A program made the translations under genes and the position numbers. Below the pieces are notes generated by a model. It did no database searches, was not told where the DNA came from, and saw only the letters and a program-made list of their open reading frames with translations. 64,000 nt of DNA from Bacteroidales bacterium (lineage in GTDB: Bacteria > Bacteroidota > Bacteroidia > Bacteroidales > UBA4181), in the NCBI GenBank assembly GCA_031275285.1, contig JAISOY010000120.1, positions 1 to 64,000 on the forward strand, read 5' to 3'. Each line of letters starts with the position of its first letter. Positions within the stretch are counted from its first letter, which is position 1. Positions 421 through 56,200 of this stretch are shown here, piece after piece.

Positions 421-1943
421 AACGTGTAGAAACCATCACCATCAATGGTATTGTCTTCAATATAGATAATGATGCCTATTCCGGGCTGCGCAACTATCTG
501 GACGTATTGGGAAAATATTTTGAGAATGAACAGGGTGGGAATGAAATCATCGCCGACATCGAGGCCCGTATATCGGAATTACTGATGGAACGAGACGGAG
601 GTAATACCCAGGTAGTTACCAAAACTGATATTGCCCGGTTAATGGAAACTCTGGGAAGTGTCGAAGACATTGCCGGAACCGATTCGGAAGCAGAAACGGA
701 AAATACATCAACCGTCCCTCCTAAACAGGCAAAAGCATCGAAACGCCTGTACCGGGATCCTGACAAACGTTATCTGGGAGGGGTTTGTTCCGGATTTGGT
801 ATCTGGCTGGGCATCAACCCGCTTTTCCTTCGTATTCTGTTCATTGCCGGTATTTTCTTCTTCTGGCCCTGGACTGTATTTATCTATATTATTTTATGGA
901 TCATCATGCCATTGGCAAAAACGACCGCCCAAAAGCTGGAAATGAGAGGTGAACCCGTCAATATCAGCAATATTGAAAAAAGTGTCAAGGAAACCCTCTC
1001 TGACTCCAATTTATCACAATCATTCAGGCAGTTTTTATCTGAGGCAGGTGTTTTTTTCGGAAAAATTATCAGCATCATAGCCCGCATTTTTATCATCATA
1101 TTTGGTCTGGCATTGTTCATGAGCGGAATAGGTATTGTTGTGGCTATCTGCAGCCTGTTTTTCATGCAGGATTTTATTTTCAGCCGGGAAGTGGAATGGG
1201 ATTTCTTTTCCTTTAATGAACTGTTACAGCAAATGATCTCCCCGGTCTCTTATCAGATCTTATCCATTTCATTCGTTATTATCGTCGCCTTAATCGTATT
1301 TGCCTTTATGTTCTGGGGCATTAAATTAATGACCGGTCTCAGGATCAAACACAGGTTCATACACTTTTTCCTTTTGTTTATCTGGATCGGAGCTATCGTT
1401 GCCTGCCTGATCACCGGATTTTCAGAAGCTCGGAACTATACATGGCATAATGAAACAAAGGACACGAAGATATTAGCTGCCTCCGATACCTTGTATCTTT
1501 CTGCCATTCCTTTTGACCTGAAAATATCCAATAATCCTTTGGAAATATATTTCGACAAGGATAACGAACGCTTTTACGGAAAACCCAACCTTCGTATCTA
1601 TAAAAGCGACGACAAACAGGTCAGGCTAATTATTGAAAAAGAATCACAGGGAAAGAATAAGCTGGAAGCATTTCAATTGGCAGAAAATATTGAATATGAA
1701 ATGGACATTCAAGGATCTACGATCACTTTTGCATCATACTTTACGGTGATCCCGGAAGATCAATGGAAATTCCAGGTATTGAACCTCACACTGTATGTTC
1801 CCGAAGGTACCATCATCATTGCAGACAATTATTTATGCAACGACCGGCTCAGTCGCTGGTTCAACTGGAGGTATCATCCGGAATGCTGTACATGGATCAT
1901 GACGGAAAAGAAAGGGCTTCAGCATCTGGATACAAAAAAATAA
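417..1943 (+). CDS. PspC-domain envelope protein with cytoplasmic N-terminal extension
   Basis: This 508-residue membrane protein starts with a soluble region typical of Bacteroidota PspC proteins (residues 1-95, starting MKRVETITINGIVF, with a helical segment around IEARISELLMER). A PspC domain follows at about 115-175 (RLYRDPDKRYLGGVCSGFG then a hydrophobic hairpin). More transmembrane helices lie near residues 215-255, 285-310 and 320-340, and a predicted beta-rich domain runs from about 355 to 500. The start overlaps the PadR stop (ATGA). PspC proteins sense or stabilise stressed membranes in proteobacteria; the Bacteroidota members are little studied. A bidirectional hairpin terminator follows. 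Confidence 0.85.
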   Translation: MKRVETITINGIVFNIDNDAYSGLRNYLDVLGKYFENEQGGNEIIADIEARISELLMERDGGNTQVVTKTDIARLMETLGSVEDIAGTDSEAETENTSTVPPKQAKASKRLYRDPDKRYLGGVCSGFGIWLGINPLFLRILFIAGIFFFWPWTVFIYIILWIIMPLAKTTAQKLEMRGEPVNISNIEKSVKETLSDSNLSQSFRQFLSEAGVFFGKIISIIARIFIIIFGLALFMSGIGIVVAICSLFFMQDFIFSREVEWDFFSFNELLQQMISPVSYQILSISFVIIVALIVFAFMFWGIKLMTGLRIKHRFIHFFLLFIWIGAIVACLITGFSEARNYTWHNETKDTKILAASDTLYLSAIPFDLKISNNPLEIYFDKDNERFYGKPNLRIYKSDDKQVRLIIEKESQGKNKLEAFQLAENIEYEMDIQGSTITFASYFTVIPEDQWKFQVLNLTLYVPEGTIIIADNYLCNDRLSRWFNWRYHPECCTWIMTEKKGLQHLDTKK

Positions 1944-1960
1944 CGTTTTTGGTTTGAATG

Positions 1961-1996
1961 AAAATCCCGTCAGGAAATACTCAGACGGGATTTTTT
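1961..1996. terminator. Bidirectional rho-independent terminator
   Basis: The stem ATCCCGTC (1964-1971) pairs with GACGGGAT (1984-1991). It has A and T runs on both sides and lies between the convergent PspC and GH76 genes, so it can serve both strands. Confidence 0.85.
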
Positions 1997-2022
1997 ATAT
2001 GGTGTTTTCGAATGAAATATTC

Positions 2023-3465
2023 CTACAAACAGGATCCTTTTTCCAATTGATATTGTGCTAATATGGCATATTCAGCGGCAAAAGTGAACGAAAACATTCC
2101 TTCCGTCTTATTCTTTTCTTCGTCGACGTTCCATCCCTGCAACAGATCAGAGGGCAAAGTTCCCCTGTACAGAAATTGATACCCATGATCCAGATTTTGC
2201 TGAAAACTATCTATACATTTCCCTATATCCCTGTACGAGGGGTAAACATCCACATATCCCCTCATCAGCACTCCATTGAACCAGTTACTGAAACCACCGA
2301 TAGGATAAGTATAGTGTCCGGGGATGGTGGTACCCATTTTGGCAAAATAAGAAAAACTCGCACCGGATAATTTTTTTGCATCGTCAAGATACACTGATTC
2401 CCCGGTCGCCCGATAAAGGTCTGCCGCACCGGAAAGCATTGTCCCGCAATTGTATGTATATGCTTTTCCTCCTGCATGCCTGAGATGATTATGCCTGCGG
2501 TATTTTATCCCATCTATGGTTTCGTATGCTACATGACAGTTCGGGTCGCATCCGCCCATCATGTCGTGATAAACTCCATCATCGCGTAATAAATGATTTT
2601 TTTGCCACTGATAGACAGCTTCGGCAAATTGCAGGTAATATTCATCTTTCCGTAGTTGCCTGGTTTTTCGTCGTCCGTCAGTATCTATATAGAGATAAGT
2701 AATTGTTGCCTGATCACCTTTATACAATTCATACAGCCATACCAGCGGGCTTACCATAGGCCCGTTGCTGCACGAATGTTTCGTTACATACCCCGGTCCC
2801 CAGGTGATACCTCCATGTTCCTTACCGTTACTATCCAACGTACCATCCCAGCCATCGAGAACATACGAGGCCAGGTACTCTGCTTCTTCCAGATATCGGT
2901 CATTACCTGTTATTTTATAGGATTCGAGCATCTCGCGAATCAACCATTGCTGGTCATCATATACATTATAGATGCCTTCAACGCGGGCTGTTCCTTTTGC
3001 CCGCCCCCTGTCAACCCCATACACGGACCATTCTTTGGTTTGTGTGTAGGAGGTAAGGGTAAAAGTGCCCCTATACCATGCCAAATTTGCATAGAGGGTA
3101 TCCAGCAATCCGGCATAGCGTCCGAAATGTGCTTCATACAACCCGGCATTACCATGTTCTTTATGGGCTTTGAGTCCCCGGAGGATGGCATTGACCGCCT
3201 CTATCGAGCTGGTATACATCCAGACACTGGCTTTCTCACCTGACCGGGTATCAGTGCGGGGATAATAATATCTGGCCATCCCGTTCGAAGTAAAATGGTG
3301 AAGTATTGCACTATCAGCTATCTGGATGGCCCGACACATATTTTGTACGGCCATCTGATCAGCCGAACCATTACCATCATTAACGACTGATCGGTTCGTC
3401 TCTCCCCACACCAAATGACAAAACAATGAGATCGTTAATAAAACCAGTATTATCTTCTTTTTCAT
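2023..3465 (-). CDS. GH76 family glycosidase, probable endo-alpha-1,6-mannanase
   Basis: This exported 480-residue protein has a Sec signal peptide (residues 1-21, ending HLVWG). The rest is an (alpha/alpha)6 barrel of family GH76, whose characterised members are endo-alpha-1,6-mannanases acting on mannan backbones. The paired catalytic aspartates of the family are D170-D171 in NVYDDQQW. The GGITWGPGY and CSNGP segments that follow are also GH76-like. The start lies one base after the aldo/keto reductase stop, so the two are co-transcribed with the reductase first. A second GH76 and a GH92 lie upstream, which supports alpha-mannan degradation. Substrate is inferred from family only. Confidence 0.85.
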   Translation of the reverse strand: MKKKIILVLLTISLFCHLVWGETNRSVVNDGNGSADQMAVQNMCRAIQIADSAILHHFTSNGMARYYYPRTDTRSGEKASVWMYTSSIEAVNAILRGLKAHKEHGNAGLYEAHFGRYAGLLDTLYANLAWYRGTFTLTSYTQTKEWSVYGVDRGRAKGTARVEGIYNVYDDQQWLIREMLESYKITGNDRYLEEAEYLASYVLDGWDGTLDSNGKEHGGITWGPGYVTKHSCSNGPMVSPLVWLYELYKGDQATITYLYIDTDGRRKTRQLRKDEYYLQFAEAVYQWQKNHLLRDDGVYHDMMGGCDPNCHVAYETIDGIKYRRHNHLRHAGGKAYTYNCGTMLSGAADLYRATGESVYLDDAKKLSGASFSYFAKMGTTIPGHYTYPIGGFSNWFNGVLMRGYVDVYPSYRDIGKCIDSFQQNLDHGYQFLYRGTLPSDLLQGWNVDEEKNKTEGMFSFTFAAEYAILAQYQLEKGSCL

Positions 3466-3466
3466 T

Positions 3467-4462
3467 TTAACCAGCCAGGATCTGTTCGATAGCAGTTAAT
3501 TCATCCTTCGTAAACGACAGGTGATCCAACGCATGAAGGTTGTCCATCATTTGTTCGACAGAACTGGCGCCAACCAGGACACTCGTTACCCGTGTATCTT
3601 TCAGTAACCAGGCTAAAGCCATTTCCGCCAGCGTCTGACCTCTGCCGAGAGCCACCGTATTCAATTTCTTTACTTTATCAATCAACTCCGGAGTAATCCG
3701 GGACTGTTGTAAATGTCCGGTCGTTTTTGCTGCACGGGAATTAACGGGTATACCCTGAAGATATTTATCCGTCAGTATCCCTTGCGCTAAAGGAGAAAAA
3801 GCGATTAACCCAACACCTTTTTCTTCCAACAGAGATAAAAGTTCCGGCTCAACCCACCGATCAAACATGGAGTAACGCGCCTGGTGGATCAGACAGGGAA
3901 CTTTATATTCATTTAATAATGTCAAAGCTTGTTTTGTTTGCTCAGGCGGATAGTTTGATATTCCAACATACAACGCTTTTCCTTGTTTTACAATATCCGC
4001 CAGAGCACCCATCGTCTCTTCTAAAGGTGTTTCCGGATCAGGGCGATGTGAGTAAAATATATCCACATAATCCAATCCGATTCTTTTCAGGCTTTGATTC
4101 AGACTTGCCATCAGGTATTTACGGCTTCCTCCATCGCCATACGGACCAGACCACATATCATATCCGGCTTTGGTCGAAATAATCAGTTCATCCCTGTAAG
4201 CACCCAGGCCTTTTTTTAATATTCGTCCGAAATTCTCTTCTGCCGACCCATATGCCGGCCCGTAATTATTGGCCAGGTCAAAATGGGTGATTCCGTGATC
4301 AAAGGCAGTATGTGCAATCCGGATAAAATGATCAAAAACATCCACACTGCCGAAATTATGCCACAATCCTAAAGAGATAGGAGGTAACATAATTCCGCTA
4401 CGTCCGCACCGTCGAAATGTTTTTCCGGTATAACGTTCTTCGTTTGCTTTATAAAATTCCAT
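3467..4462 (-). CDS. Aldo/keto reductase, YghZ/AKR14-like
   Basis: This cytoplasmic NADPH-dependent oxidoreductase (331 residues from the ATG at 4462) is closest in pattern to E. coli YghZ, which reduces L-glyceraldehyde 3-phosphate and other aldehydes. The AKR tetrad is present: D62 and Y67 in THFDLANNYG, K98 in ISTKAGY and H139 in FYSHRPD. The YghZ-type segments WHNFG, SGPYGDGGSRKYL and SPLAQGILTDKYL are all visible. An in-frame TTG six bases upstream is a less likely start. The gene heads a two-gene unit with GH76, and a dispersed intergenic repeat lies directly upstream. The in vivo substrate is unknown. Confidence 0.88.
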   Translation of the reverse strand: MEFYKANEERYTGKTFRRCGRSGIMLPPISLGLWHNFGSVDVFDHFIRIAHTAFDHGITHFDLANNYGPAYGSAEENFGRILKKGLGAYRDELIISTKAGYDMWSGPYGDGGSRKYLMASLNQSLKRIGLDYVDIFYSHRPDPETPLEETMGALADIVKQGKALYVGISNYPPEQTKQALTLLNEYKVPCLIHQARYSMFDRWVEPELLSLLEEKGVGLIAFSPLAQGILTDKYLQGIPVNSRAAKTTGHLQQSRITPELIDKVKKLNTVALGRGQTLAEMALAWLLKDTRVTSVLVGASSVEQMMDNLHALDHLSFTKDELTAIEQILAG

Positions 4463-49928: not shown

Positions 49929-52388
49929 TTATTTTTTCACATTATAAAAGTCCCAGGCTAATCGTGAGATATCAGCAATTATAGTAGCATTTGCCTGATC
50001 ATCTTCATCTGAATCTGTTATAAATACAGCTATGATGTAATGGTTATTGCCGGATAAACGTACCACCCCTATATCATTATCTGCCATCTTTATTCCTTCA
50101 TCATTTCTGAGTGAGCTGCCTGATTTATGGCCGACAATTGCTGTTTTAGGTAATTTTCCTTTGATTTTATCAGATCCGACAGAAGAGGTACTCATTAGTT
50201 TCCACAAAAAATTACGGCTACTCTCCGACAATATATCTTGCCTGTCAAGAATGGCTAATGCCTTTACCGCAGAATACGGGGTGGTCCAATTATTCAACAT
50301 TTTTCCTGCATCCTCATGCATCTCCTGCTCCGTATTAACGATGGAAATATCGTTAACCCCGATACTCTTCACAATCTGCTCCACTCTTTTAGGACCGTTC
50401 ATGAGCTTCAGAAGTATATCACAGGCATTATTGTCACTTTTAGAAACCATATATTCCAGTAACTCGGACAGGGTAAGGTTAACGTTTCCCTCCGGATGCT
50501 CATCCCTCAATGGACTATGTGTATCAGGTATCAGCTCCTCCTTGGTTACAAGTATCTTCTGATCCAGCTTCATACGGCCAAAGTCTACCAGCCTTAAAAC
50601 AGACAGTGCTATATGGTACTTATAAACGCTTGCCATCGGAAAATGAAAATGACGATCAAACGTTAGTGTATCGTTGTCTCTCGAATCCATAATGGCCACA
50701 CCTATCCTGGCCTTTTTACCTTGAATTAATATTTTGATCCTGTTCCTGAGAGAATCTATTGTCTCGGACTGGGCAAAATTAACGATACCCAATGTATCTT
50801 CATCATTCATTACTATTCGTTCCCCCCAATGGAATATTTCATTTTTATCCAAAGGGCGATGCTTGACCAGCCAGTTGAAACCAGTAAGGGTTAATTCTGT
50901 AGGATTAAACTCATTCTCTGGTATCAACTCTAAATCAGAAGGCCCTAGATGACTGACTTTTTCTGCTTTACGATCATTGATAGTGATGTCCATATCCGGA
51001 CTGGATGATTTATTGACCCCGGTATAATCCTCTCCATCTTTAACATAATATATGGCTTCTCCGTCTCCGAATACCTTAACCCTGAATAACTCATTATCAT
51101 CCCTGAAGAATCCTACTATTCTCTTTCCACGTATCTGGTTGAAACCCACCGTATCTTCCTGAGAAACTATGAATCCTTTATTTAATAAATTCATTTGCTT
51201 GGGTTTCTGCCTTTCGGTTTCTATTTCAATATATTCGGCTGTCATCTGGTTATCCTGCGACCATATTACAGGAAGGGTAAACATCCGGATCACCGAATCT
51301 TGAAGTGACATAGCCAGCGAATCGCACATGCCCTGCATATCCAGACTGTAAAATTTCACCTTATTATAAGCTTTCATGATCTTAAAGCCGGATGTATCAA
51401 CATCTGACCGCAATGTATCAGAATGCATAAAAAGAGAGTCTTTTTCACCCGTCATGATCAACATTGCCTGATCGGTAAGCCAAGCCTTTTCAGATACATT
51501 ATTGTAAGCCCCTTTTTGTCCTTGCAGGATGATATTATTGGTAGTATCTACAATTACAATGTTACTGAATGCCCGGCCATTTCCGGTTTGACTTTCATAA
51601 TACAAAGTATCGGCATTGACCGTAGTACTTCCGCTTTTTATCCAAGCATTCTTCCTGAAAAGCGCTACCGTATCATTGGTATTGTACCAGCCAAGTTCGC
51701 AGAATATAGTGTCTTTCTCATTCACAACATGGGTAGGGCCAACAAAATCAGCAATTTTTGTTTGTACATTATAATTCAGGGTATCTGTTATGATTGTATA
51801 ATCCGGGGTATTGAGTACCACATCTTTCTTAAAATAGAACATACTAATGTCCCTATAGTAATGCCCTTTTTTGCTGACCATATGGTTTCCCTTATTGAAT
51901 ATATCTGCTCCTACTACATAATAAGCAATATTTGTACTCAGGTCATAATACAAATGCTGGGTTTTCATAATAGCATCCTGATCTTCCAGAACAACATTAC
52001 CCCATATCTCAGAAAAACTATCATCTCCCTGGTATTTAGCGAAATCCCCATCTACCGTACTTCCATCACTTTTTATAATATGCACGCGGCTAAATGCATC
52101 CAAACGATTTGTCTCGCTAAAATAATATGCACTATCACACGTCATGGTAATATCTCCATGCACCATTACCACACTATCAATCAAACGCATAGCATCTGGA
52201 GATATATCCGGTGCAGGCCTGCCTAGTGCATAGGAAACATATATTTCCTTAACTTCCGTGTCAGTTTGGGCCGATAAAGATATTGCCTGGAATAAAAAAA
52301 CAGATATGATACATACATGTAAAAAGATCTTATACAATGTACAATGATGCTTCGTACATGATGTATTCTCGGTCATATCTTGTTTCAT
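49929..52388 (-). CDS. OstA/LptA-like protein fused to class A beta-lactamase
   Basis: This 819-residue protein has a signal peptide (about 20-40). An OstA/LptA-like beta-jellyroll follows (about 45-520: HGDITMTCDSAYYF, GNVVLEDQDAI, LTGFNWLVKHRPLDKNEIF), a family that carries lipopolysaccharide across the periplasm. From about residue 545 the same frame is a class A beta-lactamase of the CfxA/PER-like subclass: S587-V-Y-K590, S651-D-N653, omega-loop Glu in TEQEMHED (685-693) followed by NNWTTP, and K755-S-G757. All catalytic positions are kept. It starts two bases after the SurA-like gene, so it is the last gene of that operon. The fusion is highly unusual. Confidence 0.88.
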   Translation of the reverse strand: MKQDMTENTSCTKHHCTLYKIFLHVCIISVFLFQAISLSAQTDTEVKEIYVSYALGRPAPDISPDAMRLIDSVVMVHGDITMTCDSAYYFSETNRLDAFSRVHIIKSDGSTVDGDFAKYQGDDSFSEIWGNVVLEDQDAIMKTQHLYYDLSTNIAYYVVGADIFNKGNHMVSKKGHYYRDISMFYFKKDVVLNTPDYTIITDTLNYNVQTKIADFVGPTHVVNEKDTIFCELGWYNTNDTVALFRKNAWIKSGSTTVNADTLYYESQTGNGRAFSNIVIVDTTNNIILQGQKGAYNNVSEKAWLTDQAMLIMTGEKDSLFMHSDTLRSDVDTSGFKIMKAYNKVKFYSLDMQGMCDSLAMSLQDSVIRMFTLPVIWSQDNQMTAEYIEIETERQKPKQMNLLNKGFIVSQEDTVGFNQIRGKRIVGFFRDDNELFRVKVFGDGEAIYYVKDGEDYTGVNKSSSPDMDITINDRKAEKVSHLGPSDLELIPENEFNPTELTLTGFNWLVKHRPLDKNEIFHWGERIVMNDEDTLGIVNFAQSETIDSLRNRIKILIQGKKARIGVAIMDSRDNDTLTFDRHFHFPMASVYKYHIALSVLRLVDFGRMKLDQKILVTKEELIPDTHSPLRDEHPEGNVNLTLSELLEYMVSKSDNNACDILLKLMNGPKRVEQIVKSIGVNDISIVNTEQEMHEDAGKMLNNWTTPYSAVKALAILDRQDILSESSRNFLWKLMSTSSVGSDKIKGKLPKTAIVGHKSGSSLRNDEGIKMADNDIGVVRLSGNNHYIIAVFITDSDEDDQANATIIADISRLAWDFYNVKK

Positions 52389-52390
52389 GC

Positions 52391-53731
52391 TTATTTCAAC
52401 CAGTTATTATTATTCAGTCCGCACCTTTTAAAACTGTCATCGATATATATATAACTGCTTTCTATTTTTTCGTTGACCCAATCTTCGATAACAGACATCG
52501 ATTTATTCTGCTGTGTGATACTTTGGAGATATGTATAGTCTTCTTTCAGGTTTGCCCGATGAGGATCTGTTAATGAATTAACCTTTAATATTTTATAAAC
52601 CGGTCTTTGCTTTTCATCTTTTGATTCGAAAGGAGCCGATATCTCTCCTATTTTTAAATTTTTGATTACCTCATAATCAGATTTTTCCAAATGATTCATT
52701 TCAAAAGAAGTACTAAAATCATTTGGATTAATCATTACGCCTCCGTTGAAACGTGTATTTTCATCCTGGGAAAAATACAAAACAGCTTTATCCCAATCAA
52801 TTTTTTCTTCCTTAATTAACTTAGCCACGCTGTCTAACCGTTGAGTTACAGTTTCAATAGCTTCAGGGTTGAGCTTGGGTTTCTTTATTATATGGCGTGT
52901 ATTTACCTGATCCCCTCTTTTATCAATCAACTGTATAATATGGTAACCGAATTGTGTTTCAACGATACGGGATACATCTCCTTTATTTTTCAAGGCCCAT
53001 GCAGCTTTTACATATTCCGGATCAAGGCCTTCCCCTTTACTCTGAAAGCCAATTTCCCCCCCGGTACGTACAGCTGCAGGTTCTTCAGAATAGAGAACAG
53101 CCAGTGTCCGGAAACTTCTACCGTTGATAATCTCTTTTCTCATATTAAGCAATTCCTGACGGACCTCGCTAATCGCTTCATCGCTGTAAGGCGGATACAT
53201 CACTAACTGGGCAACCTCTACCTGGCCATTGATCAATGGAATACTATCCTTGGGTATTTTATTATAAAAACTACGTACTTCAGATGGAGTAACTTTAACA
53301 TCTTTCAATATTTCTCCCTGCATTTTCTGGGCAAGCAGTTGGTCGTAAAGCGCACTGCGAAGATCATCTTTTATTTCATAAATACTTTTTTTGAAATATT
53401 CTTCCATCTTTTCCTGTGAACCGGTTTGCCTGATAAAAAATTCCAACCGGCGATTCAGTTCCTGTTCGACTTCACTACCTTCCACCACAAGACTATCAAC
53501 TTCAGCTTGATTCATCATTAATTTCTGGGTCAGCAATTCTTCAAAGATCGAACATTTCATATCACCACGGACAGGTACTCCCTGTAATCTATACTGCAGA
53601 TACATACCTTCAACATCCGATTGTTTGATATGTTTACTTCCTACGATGGCAACTATTTGATCAAGCATATATGGTTGTGCGTAAAGAGACACAGCATACA
53701 GGCCGAGGAACAAAAAAATGATTTTTTTCAT
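52391..53731 (-). CDS. SurA-like periplasmic peptidylprolyl isomerase
   Basis: This 446-residue chaperone (from the ATG at 53731, MKKIIFLFLGLYAVSLYAQ as signal; a longer frame overlaps the preceding gene) has a SurA N-terminal domain (about 20-150, DQIVAIVGSKHIKQSDV), a first parvulin domain (about 165-270, TGGEIGFQSKGEGLDPEYVKAA in parts, QFGYHIIQLIDKRG) and a second, weaker one (about 280-385, FNGGVMINPNDFSTSF). It helps fold outer-membrane proteins. It starts 25 bases after the PPIase-like lipoprotein and ends two bases before the OstA fusion. Confidence 0.9.
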   Translation of the reverse strand: MKKIIFLFLGLYAVSLYAQPYMLDQIVAIVGSKHIKQSDVEGMYLQYRLQGVPVRGDMKCSIFEELLTQKLMMNQAEVDSLVVEGSEVEQELNRRLEFFIRQTGSQEKMEEYFKKSIYEIKDDLRSALYDQLLAQKMQGEILKDVKVTPSEVRSFYNKIPKDSIPLINGQVEVAQLVMYPPYSDEAISEVRQELLNMRKEIINGRSFRTLAVLYSEEPAAVRTGGEIGFQSKGEGLDPEYVKAAWALKNKGDVSRIVETQFGYHIIQLIDKRGDQVNTRHIIKKPKLNPEAIETVTQRLDSVAKLIKEEKIDWDKAVLYFSQDENTRFNGGVMINPNDFSTSFEMNHLEKSDYEVIKNLKIGEISAPFESKDEKQRPVYKILKVNSLTDPHRANLKEDYTYLQSITQQNKSMSVIEDWVNEKIESSYIYIDDSFKRCGLNNNNWLK

Positions 53732-53756
53732 TATATAATTCAATTTACTTGATGTC

Positions 53757-54617
53757 TTAATTAATGGGATATATTTCAAATTGCTTCTTTTTTAAAGCAT
53801 CACTATATATTTTCTTTTCCAGATTGCTGATAAAATCCAGCTTTCTTTTATTGATAATGATATTTTTGACCTTTTCCCTTACAAAAGCTAAAGGCACAAT
53901 ATCTCCAGGCCCTTTTTTCTCCTTGATATTTACCAGAAAGATAAATTTATCATTTTGTTGTTCGATACGATTGCCATTTACAATTTGCTTTGATGCTGCT
54001 TCCGGTTGGGGCAACTCTTTTTCAATATCCGACCAAAAAATCCAGTCATCATTAAAGAAATCACATCTTAATGCATAAGTAGAACAATATTCGGTTAAAC
54101 TTTGGATATCTTTTTCTTTATCAGAAATATACCATCGTTTCACATTGTATACGTTCGGTGCATCGGCAGGTAACTGGATATATAAAGCTTTTACGACGAA
54201 TTCGTTCAAAATAAAATTAGCGGTATTATTGTCATAATAATCCTGTATCTCATCTCCAGATATCGTTGTATCCAATTTTTCATACAACATCTGGTCTTCA
54301 TATTTATAAATTAATAAAGACGTCCGGTATGTTTCTATCTCTTTGGATATATCCAGCTGTTCCTTGGAAAGGTTTATTTCCGCCTTTCTCAAAAGAAGCT
54401 GGGTACTGATCCACTTATCAATATACAATCTAGCCATTGATAGGCTATCTTCTTTACTACTCCCTTTAGGAAATATATGCCTGATATCGCTAAAATACAA
54501 ATTCTTGTTAAAAACCTTTGCCACAACCCTGTCCTCTTTAGAATCCGTGGAACAGGCCTGTAGTAACAGAATAAAGAAAAGAAAGTATATCCCGATATTT
54601 TTGTTCCAATTGACCAT
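53757..54617 (-). CDS. SurA-related lipoprotein lacking a parvulin domain
   Basis: This 286-residue lipoprotein (ATG at 54617, lipobox LLQAC) has SurA-N-like helical regions (RVVAKVFNKNLYFSDI, STQLLLRKAEINLSKEQ) and a parvulin-like framework where the active-site strands are missing or degenerate. It probably works as a holdase partner of its neighbours. Its ATG overlaps the stop of the 5' neighbour by one base (TGATG). A TTG three bases earlier is less likely. Confidence 0.75.
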   Translation of the reverse strand: MVNWNKNIGIYFLFFILLLQACSTDSKEDRVVAKVFNKNLYFSDIRHIFPKGSSKEDSLSMARLYIDKWISTQLLLRKAEINLSKEQLDISKEIETYRTSLLIYKYEDQMLYEKLDTTISGDEIQDYYDNNTANFILNEFVVKALYIQLPADAPNVYNVKRWYISDKEKDIQSLTEYCSTYALRCDFFNDDWIFWSDIEKELPQPEAASKQIVNGNRIEQQNDKFIFLVNIKEKKGPGDIVPLAFVREKVKNIIINKRKLDFISNLEKKIYSDALKKKQFEIYPIN

Positions 54618-56200
54618 CAATCCCTTATTTTAGATTTTTTCTTTATATCAGCCCACATCTCCTTATTGACCGTAACCGGATATTCCTTTTTCAATCTTTT
54701 TATCCATTGGTTCTCGAGCTCTTTCCCGTATTCGGAGAGTACTTCCCCTCGGGTTTCCACAAAAGTCTTCCTGGATGGAGGATATATGGTATGAATGTCC
54801 AAAAATACAAATTTACTATCCCATTCCAATATCTTTGAAACACCTTTTTTCCAATTTATTTGATCAAAAATGCTATTCGTTCCCTTGGGTAAGGTCATAC
54901 GGACAGTGTCCAAACACGGAGCGCCCCCGTCTGTTTCACAAAAATAGATAAACAAATTATTGGGTAAACTTCCTTTTCCCTCATTTGTTCTACCCACCAA
55001 TCGACTGGCACGCATAGCAACTTCCTCACTGTTACAAAAGTACGCTGTTGCAACCATTCGTTTCTTCCAACGGAATTTACGTTTATTTTTCTGATAAAAT
55101 TCCAACAACCCAACAGAATCCTGAGCTTTCTTTCGGACCTCGTTTTCTGTAATATATATCAACAGTAATCCATCGTGATATGTATTAATTACATTACGAA
55201 ATGTATCATCTTCGGGAAAACGGGTCCTTTCGTAATCAAGCAATGAGCGACATACAAACTGATGATACAATATTTCTATACTTTTATGATCTTTATTTAC
55301 ACTCAAATACTGTACAAAATCGGAAAGCGGAACAATGATTCCTGCAAAAGAAAATAACGGACGATTCAAAGAATTAGTATATTCAGTTTCGGATAATAAT
55401 GAGGTATTTTCAGAAAATGAGTATTTCTTTTTCAGATATGCAATATATTTATCTTTAGCCAGGTATAACCGATCGTTATTGCTGATCTTTCGACGCAAGT
55501 CAGGCAATGACTCTTCAAATGACGGGGGCGACTCAACCGCCCGGTGATCATATACCTTAATGAGATGATATCCCTGACTACTTCTGACAGGCAGTGAGAT
55601 TGATCCGTCCAAAGCAAGGTATGCCGCAGTTTCAACAGGATATTCCAAATGAAAAACAGAAAAATATCCTAAGTCTCCATGATTCATCTTCGCAGAAGTA
55701 TCATCGGAATAGATTCGGGCCATCTCTTCGAAATTTTCACCTGATATGATTTTATCCCGAATTTGCATGATACGGCGATATGCCGGAATAGTATCATCCC
55801 CGTCTACCTTTATCAGAATATGTGCTGCTTTTACTTCATAAAGGCTACGCTCATAAGCTTCCCTGAGTAACTGCTCGTTAACAATTTTGTCCATCTGGAA
55901 CTTAATGGCATATTGGTCACTGTATTTTGTCCACTCGCAGATAAAGGAAGACAAGGTATCTATCCCGGCTGCTTTTGCAGCAATAATCTTAAGTTGATAC
56001 TGTATATATTTTTCCAGGCATTCATCCAAGTCCTTTTTTTTCAATGTTTCATCCCTTTGGCAGATACGTTCAAAGTCGTTTATATCAAACATTTGATGAC
56101 CAATCTGTACCAAAATCGACTCATTTGCACTGATTATGCCTGTACCTAAGAATATAAATACAGCCAGAAATAAAACTTTGATACCTGATGGGTAGGACAC
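54617..56200 (-). CDS. Parvulin-type periplasmic peptidylprolyl isomerase
   Basis: This 527-residue protein has a signal peptide ending near SANE, a SurA-N-like segment (about 28-105), a clear parvulin domain (about 110-225: VKAAHILIKVDG, MNHGDLGYFSVFHL, SSQGYHLIKV) and a second degenerate part toward the end. It is one of three successive SurA-type genes. No ATG fits; a GTG at 56200 is the best start, 24 bases after the guaB stop. Confidence 0.85.
   Translation of the reverse strand: MSYPSGIKVLFLAVFIFLGTGIISANESILVQIGHQMFDINDFERICQRDETLKKKDLDECLEKYIQYQLKIIAAKAAGIDTLSSFICEWTKYSDQYAIKFQMDKIVNEQLLREAYERSLYEVKAAHILIKVDGDDTIPAYRRIMQIRDKIISGENFEEMARIYSDDTSAKMNHGDLGYFSVFHLEYPVETAAYLALDGSISLPVRSSQGYHLIKVYDHRAVESPPSFEESLPDLRRKISNNDRLYLAKDKYIAYLKKKYSFSENTSLLSETEYTNSLNRPLFSFAGIIVPLSDFVQYLSVNKDHKSIEILYHQFVCRSLLDYERTRFPEDDTFRNVINTYHDGLLLIYITENEVRKKAQDSVGLLEFYQKNKRKFRWKKRMVATAYFCNSEEVAMRASRLVGRTNEGKGSLPNNLFIYFCETDGGAPCLDTVRMTLPKGTNSIFDQINWKKGVSKILEWDSKFVFLDIHTIYPPSRKTFVETRGEVLSEYGKELENQWIKRLKKEYPVTVNKEMWADIKKKSKIRD

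Follow-up and report, generated by a model that had tools for sequence, protein, structure and literature searches.

Architecture and Genomic Context of the Fusion Gene

Does one gene of this Bacteroidales bacterium encode both an OstA/LptA-like protein and a complete beta-lactamase, and, if so, what may the enzyme do there? The gene lies in the window analyzed here, i.e., the first 64,000 nucleotides of contig JAISOY010000120.1 (UBA4181; assembly GCA_031275285.1). A first-pass annotation of the window had read both parts in one frame and had stated that the lactamase part lacks a signal peptide of its own. The former was confirmed by Pfam and NCBIfam profiles and by five congeners. The latter held as well: the lactamase begins at its mature N-terminus, and reading of the sequence revealed no second signal peptide at the OstA/lactamase junction of the window protein.

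The fusion gene (49929..52388, minus strand) is a single uninterrupted 819-codon frame running from an ATG start at 52388 to 49929, and the same architecture was present in the five congeners. A Sec-type signal peptide, read off the sequence, was predicted at about residues 1–41 (52266..52388, minus strand; ...LFQAISLSAQ), and its AQ-type end aligned across the fused proteins. The OstA_2/LptA-like region spans about residues 63–520 (50829..52202, minus strand), and its full length agreed with unfused orthologues. In this region, the Pfam families OstA_2 (PF13100) and LptD_N (PF03968) matched residues 63–202 (1.4e-39; 135.7 bits vs. a cut-off of 21.2) and residues 236–394 (1.8e-5; 25.4 bits vs. 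a cut-off of 20.4), respectively. An acidic linker of about 25 residues (about residues 521–545; 50754..50828, minus strand), fast evolving according to the alignment and its pN, leads to a class A beta-lactamase (subclass A2) in its mature form (residues 546–819; 49932..50753, minus strand), which was delimited by profiles and motifs.

The fusion is the last of four minus-strand genes that abut by overlaps or a 2-base gap. The first of these tightly packed genes encodes a PpiC-type PPIase recognized by Pfam (54617..56200, minus strand). It is followed by a gene for a small predicted envelope protein without a Pfam family (53757..54620, minus strand), which has orthologues in five congeners and in G011, and by the gene of a SurA-like PPIase (52391..53779, minus strand; Pfam), which ends 2 bases before the fusion start. 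This SurA-OstA gene order was repeated in the other examined species of the genus and the family. The gene for IMP dehydrogenase lies upstream of the four-gene run on the same strand, and atpD begins 224 bases downstream of the fusion. The initial description of the fusion as the last gene of a chaperone operon proved accurate.

Catalytic Residues of the Lactamase Domain

The lactamase domain was identified by the Pfam family Beta-lactamase2 (residues 563–789; 1.3e-37) and by two NCBIfam models. The equivalog model NF012099 "class A beta-lactamase, subclass A2" was passed over residues 547–817 with 326.7 bits (cut-off of 320 bits), and the domain began at position 2 of the 275 positions of this model, i.e., at the mature N-terminus. 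NF033103 was passed with 278.2 bits (cut-off of 200 bits). The solved relatives of the domain are class A beta-lactamases including PER, and the VEB family of extended-spectrum enzymes (ESBLs) found on plasmids is about 42% identical to it.

In the window protein, the motifs S587-x-x-K590, S651-D652-N653 and K755-S756-G757 were in register, as were E687 (Ambler position 166) and H691. Thus, all catalytic motifs lie at the positions given earlier, and the omega-loop glutamate, which had been located only approximately, was placed at E687 by the alignment. Ser70, Lys73, the SDN motif, Lys234 and Gly236 were invariant in all 6 fused and all 26 stand-alone enzymes compared. Glu166, which drives deacylation in class A enzymes, was present in all 26 stand-alone enzymes and in five of the six fused ones. 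In the fusion of G008 (L006, G008:C150), it is replaced by Tyr at the position equal to window residue 687, while the acylation residues are intact. Residue 170 is His in 23 of the 26 stand-alone enzymes, and H, H, A, A, N and E were found among the fused ones. As the acylation residues are invariant and positions 166 and 170 vary, the acylation machinery is kept more strictly than the deacylation machinery in the fused clade. The window copy retained the residues of both, and, judged by these residues, the lactamase of the window species is most likely active as a beta-lactamase. Since one congener has lost Glu166, the role of the domain may differ between species.

Conservation of the Join in the Genus

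G001, G002, G004, G006 and G008, which are five other species of the genus and are each represented by a separate assembly, share this in-frame fusion. These proteins are 64–65% identical to the window protein over both parts and contain no internal stop, and the join site coincided in all six aligned fusions. The GC3 of each domain tracked its own genome, with OstA/lactamase values of 0.38/0.41 in the window and 0.78/0.71 in G008. All examined genomes of the genus are draft assemblies, which might favor an explanation by an artefact of assembly or sequencing, or by two genes united through a recent frameshift. However, six separate assemblies would have to repeat the same join without a stop at such divergence, and the composition of both domains speaks against this explanation, which we regard as practically negligible. 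Instead of two genes with a stop at the junction, as would be expected from an assembly error, five independent congeners showed the same open frame; chance and misassembly are therefore excluded.

Distribution of the Fusion

The survey comprised nearly 800 genomes, namely 393 Bacteroidales genomes representing about 120 families and 395 Bacteroidota genomes. Matches to the lactamase domain were obtained in 45 of the 393 Bacteroidales genomes, and those listed outside the genus were all frames of about 270–400 codons. Among the Bacteroidota, 121 of the 395 genomes had such matches, and the close ones among the matches listed all stood alone. No OstA-lactamase fusion occurred outside this genus among the matches listed for either set; on this basis, the fusion was observed in a single genus, although infrequent weak cases may have gone unseen. 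The possibility that it represents a common Bacteroidales family was therefore dismissed, lactamase matches elsewhere being, among those listed, stand-alone or joined to other partners.

The family of the window species comprises 12 genomes, and its three other genera carry an unfused OstA. Within the genus, G005 possesses a complete OstA gene of 574 aa (L031:7914-9638) with a Lys/Pro/Ala-rich low-complexity tail in place of the lactamase, and no lactamase remnant was found downstream of it by tblastn. G003 is interrupted at the end of a contig, and no OstA match was obtained in G007, a genome that is 58% complete.

Several long OstA frames were considered as further lactamase fusions and rejected. 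The 872-codon frame of G019 contains repetitive charged stretches and no lactamase, and the figure of 1669 for G047 resolved to an ordinary OstA gene of 515 aa. OstA_2 frames of 770–900 codons, compared with the usual 500–600, were observed in other families of the class (G498, G613, G758, G774, G658, G401, G754 and G766); where these genomes have a close lactamase match, it lies elsewhere, in a frame of about 300 codons.

Origin of the Fusion and Selection on the Lactamase Domain

In the phylogenetic tree, the six fused lactamase domains formed one clade (100/100) nested among stand-alone Bacteroidales enzymes of the same kind, and together with six of these they fell in a set of 12 rows (99/94). 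The window domain branched first, followed by G008, G001, G002 and the pair of G004 and G006. Neither the OstA tree nor the operon tree conflicts with this order, and a single fusion event explains the pattern. In the operon tree, the best placement of G005 was outside the six fused species (84/83), although a loss in G005 was not rejected (p-AU of 0.19). Given this placement, the fusion probably occurred later than that split. A recently arrived mobile or plasmid-borne lactamase was rejected as the source, because the best plasmid match (VEB) is 42% identical and the GC3 of the domain is like that of the host gene.

Selection was assessed primarily in G004 and G006, the closest pair and the least saturated at synonymous sites. 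The dN/dS in this pair was 0.083 for the lactamase domain (bootstrap 0.051–0.128) and 0.144 for OstA (bootstrap 0.102–0.204), i.e., the constraint on the lactamase was not weaker than that on OstA. Other measurable pairs without G008 yielded lactamase values of about 0.09–0.16, while the G008 lactamase evolves faster (dN/dS of 0.15–0.34 in measurable pairs). The linker was unconstrained, with a pN of 0.33–0.66 vs. 0.07–0.28 in the domains. Judged by these ratios, the lactamase domain is under purifying selection and maintained as a working protein in G004 and G006.

The OstA Part and the Predicted Lpt Bridge

In the fusion-bearing genomes of the genus, the fusion is the sole OstA_2 protein, and its lactamase is the only authentic class A enzyme; the other Beta-lactamase2 matches were weak and lay in frames of about 450–520 codons, and no free subclass A2 enzyme was found in these genomes. 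With regard to a jellyroll fold such as that of LptA and the LptD N-domain, the best matches of the OstA part among profiles of solved structures were LptD and LptA, with weak, merely suggestive E values of 0.036 and 0.084. An AlphaFold model built from a two-sequence input only had very low confidence (pLDDT of 31). LptF/G (PF03739) was present in nine of nine genomes and LptD_2 (PF19838) in six of nine, both including the window genome, where they scored above the cut-off. Pfam gave no LptC match in the window genome, which left the Lpt bridge there only partly reconstructed. Family membership and gene context suggest that the OstA part belongs to this bridge. If OstA is a bridge protein, each copy of the bridge may bear a lactamase.

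Possible Function of the Fused Lactamase

The reading that we favor, with modest confidence and from sequence data, is that a secreted, drug-hydrolyzing beta-lactamase is carried on the LPS-transport bridge as the result of a single, old in-frame fusion. In the ancestor of most of the genus, a mature subclass A2 lactamase of the Bacteroidota type, minus its signal peptide, would have been added to the C-terminus of the sole OstA/LptA-like protein. The entire protein would reach the periplasm by means of the OstA signal peptide, and the OstA part would probably serve there as a component of the bridge that connects LptF/G to LptD. Tethered by the short flexible linker, the lactamase would destroy beta-lactams in the periplasm and would be produced whenever the bridge is produced. 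Accepting this, the fused domain probably hydrolyzes beta-lactams, and protection from these drugs was presumably the selected benefit of the fusion. The replacement of Glu166 by Tyr and the faster evolution of the lactamase in G008, the drift at residue 170 and the lack of a Pfam match to LptC in the window genome are points against a tethered lactamase.

The chief alternative, if rather less probable, is that OstA serves as a carrier that provides only its signal peptide, promoter and steady expression. The linker would then be cut in the periplasm to release free lactamase, and the location at the bridge would be irrelevant. A join precisely where the mature lactamase begins, a short, acidic and unconstrained linker, and an OstA end like that of unfused orthologues would all fit such a carrier. 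Yet the fusion has been retained in six species across a deep divergence (about 64% identity), and no re-split into two genes was seen. Alternatively, the lactamase fold may have been repurposed: it would bind, or be acylated by, beta-lactams or peptidoglycan stem peptides and would sense the state of the cell wall or trim it, thereby adjusting LPS export or envelope assembly. This appears unlikely, although the operon partners are envelope assembly factors and the acylation residues remained invariant while Glu166 was lost in G008 and position 170 drifted. Against it stand the retention of Glu166 in five of the six fused species and the passing of the equivalog lactamase model; strong purifying selection by itself fits a sensor as well as a lactamase. 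More specifically, acylation by a beta-lactam or a peptidoglycan stem peptide could report the state of the wall to the LPS bridge, with the loss of Glu166 in G008 yielding a long-lived acyl-enzyme signal, but such a covalent sensor is improbable.

Very little probability was assigned to the lactamase domain being decaying, selectively near-neutral baggage. The absence of Glu166 and the faster-evolving domain in G008, as well as the absence of the domain from G005, could be taken in this sense; the motifs retained in five of six species and the low dN/dS (0.08 in G004/G006 and about 0.09–0.16 in the other measurable pairs without G008) speak against it.

Should the OstA part indeed act in the LPS bridge, an antibiotic-destroying enzyme would reside inside the apparatus by which the outer membrane is rendered impermeable, and two layers of beta-lactam defence would be united in one polypeptide. 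The fused species, their unfused relative and the species without Glu166 offer a natural experiment on whether a lactamase at the bridge changes protection. In addition, the fusion provides a ready reporter design for studies of the Lpt bridge of Bacteroidota.

Comparison with Known Proteins

Both domain families are known; their fusion was found in no paper, most subscription journals being outside the search, and the same search of the literature returned no relevant natural lactamase fusions. Each domain alone is ordinary, whereas their combination is unusual, as are the single-copy position and the conservation of the fusion. The fused domain resembles the subclass A2 enzymes of Bacteroidota (CblA, CepA, VEB, PER, TLA and the CGA/CIA relatives) in its whole mature domain and all catalytic motifs, and His at position 170, as in the window protein, is common among them. 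Unlike these enzymes, it has no signal peptide of its own and forms the C-terminal part of an OstA-like protein; moreover, some congener fusions are changed at residue 170 and one at Glu166. With the OstA-like proteins of Bacteroidota (PF13100), relatives of LptA and LptD_N, the fusion shares the full-length OstA region, the SurA-like PPIase upstream and the occurrence of one copy per genome. It differs from them by its C-terminal enzyme, as the unfused orthologues stop close to where the OstA part does (frames mostly of 500–600 codons).

A class A-like module within a longer protein is also known from other multi-domain Beta-lactamase2 proteins of Bacteroidota (L084 with Amidase_3; L082 with PF00144), but their lactamase domains are 20–27% identical, their partners are other ones and OstA is absent. 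The Bacteroidota matches listed included four longer frames whose lactamase-like domains are distant; the three that were opened had PF00144, Amidase_3 and a Pfam-less partner. In L084 (G622:C1:170000-175000; 2177-4291, minus strand), an N-acetylmuramoyl-L-alanine amidase (Amidase_3) is joined to Beta-lactamase2, and G779, of the same genus as G622, has a similar long frame. L082 (G697:C1:117300-122300; 790-3195, plus strand) is a protein of 802 aa in which a PF00144 domain (class C-like) stands in tandem with DUF3471 and a Beta-lactamase2 domain resembling class A. In L083 (G413:C74:55500-60500; 1942-4071, plus strand), Beta-lactamase2 is followed in one frame by about 300 residues without a Pfam match.
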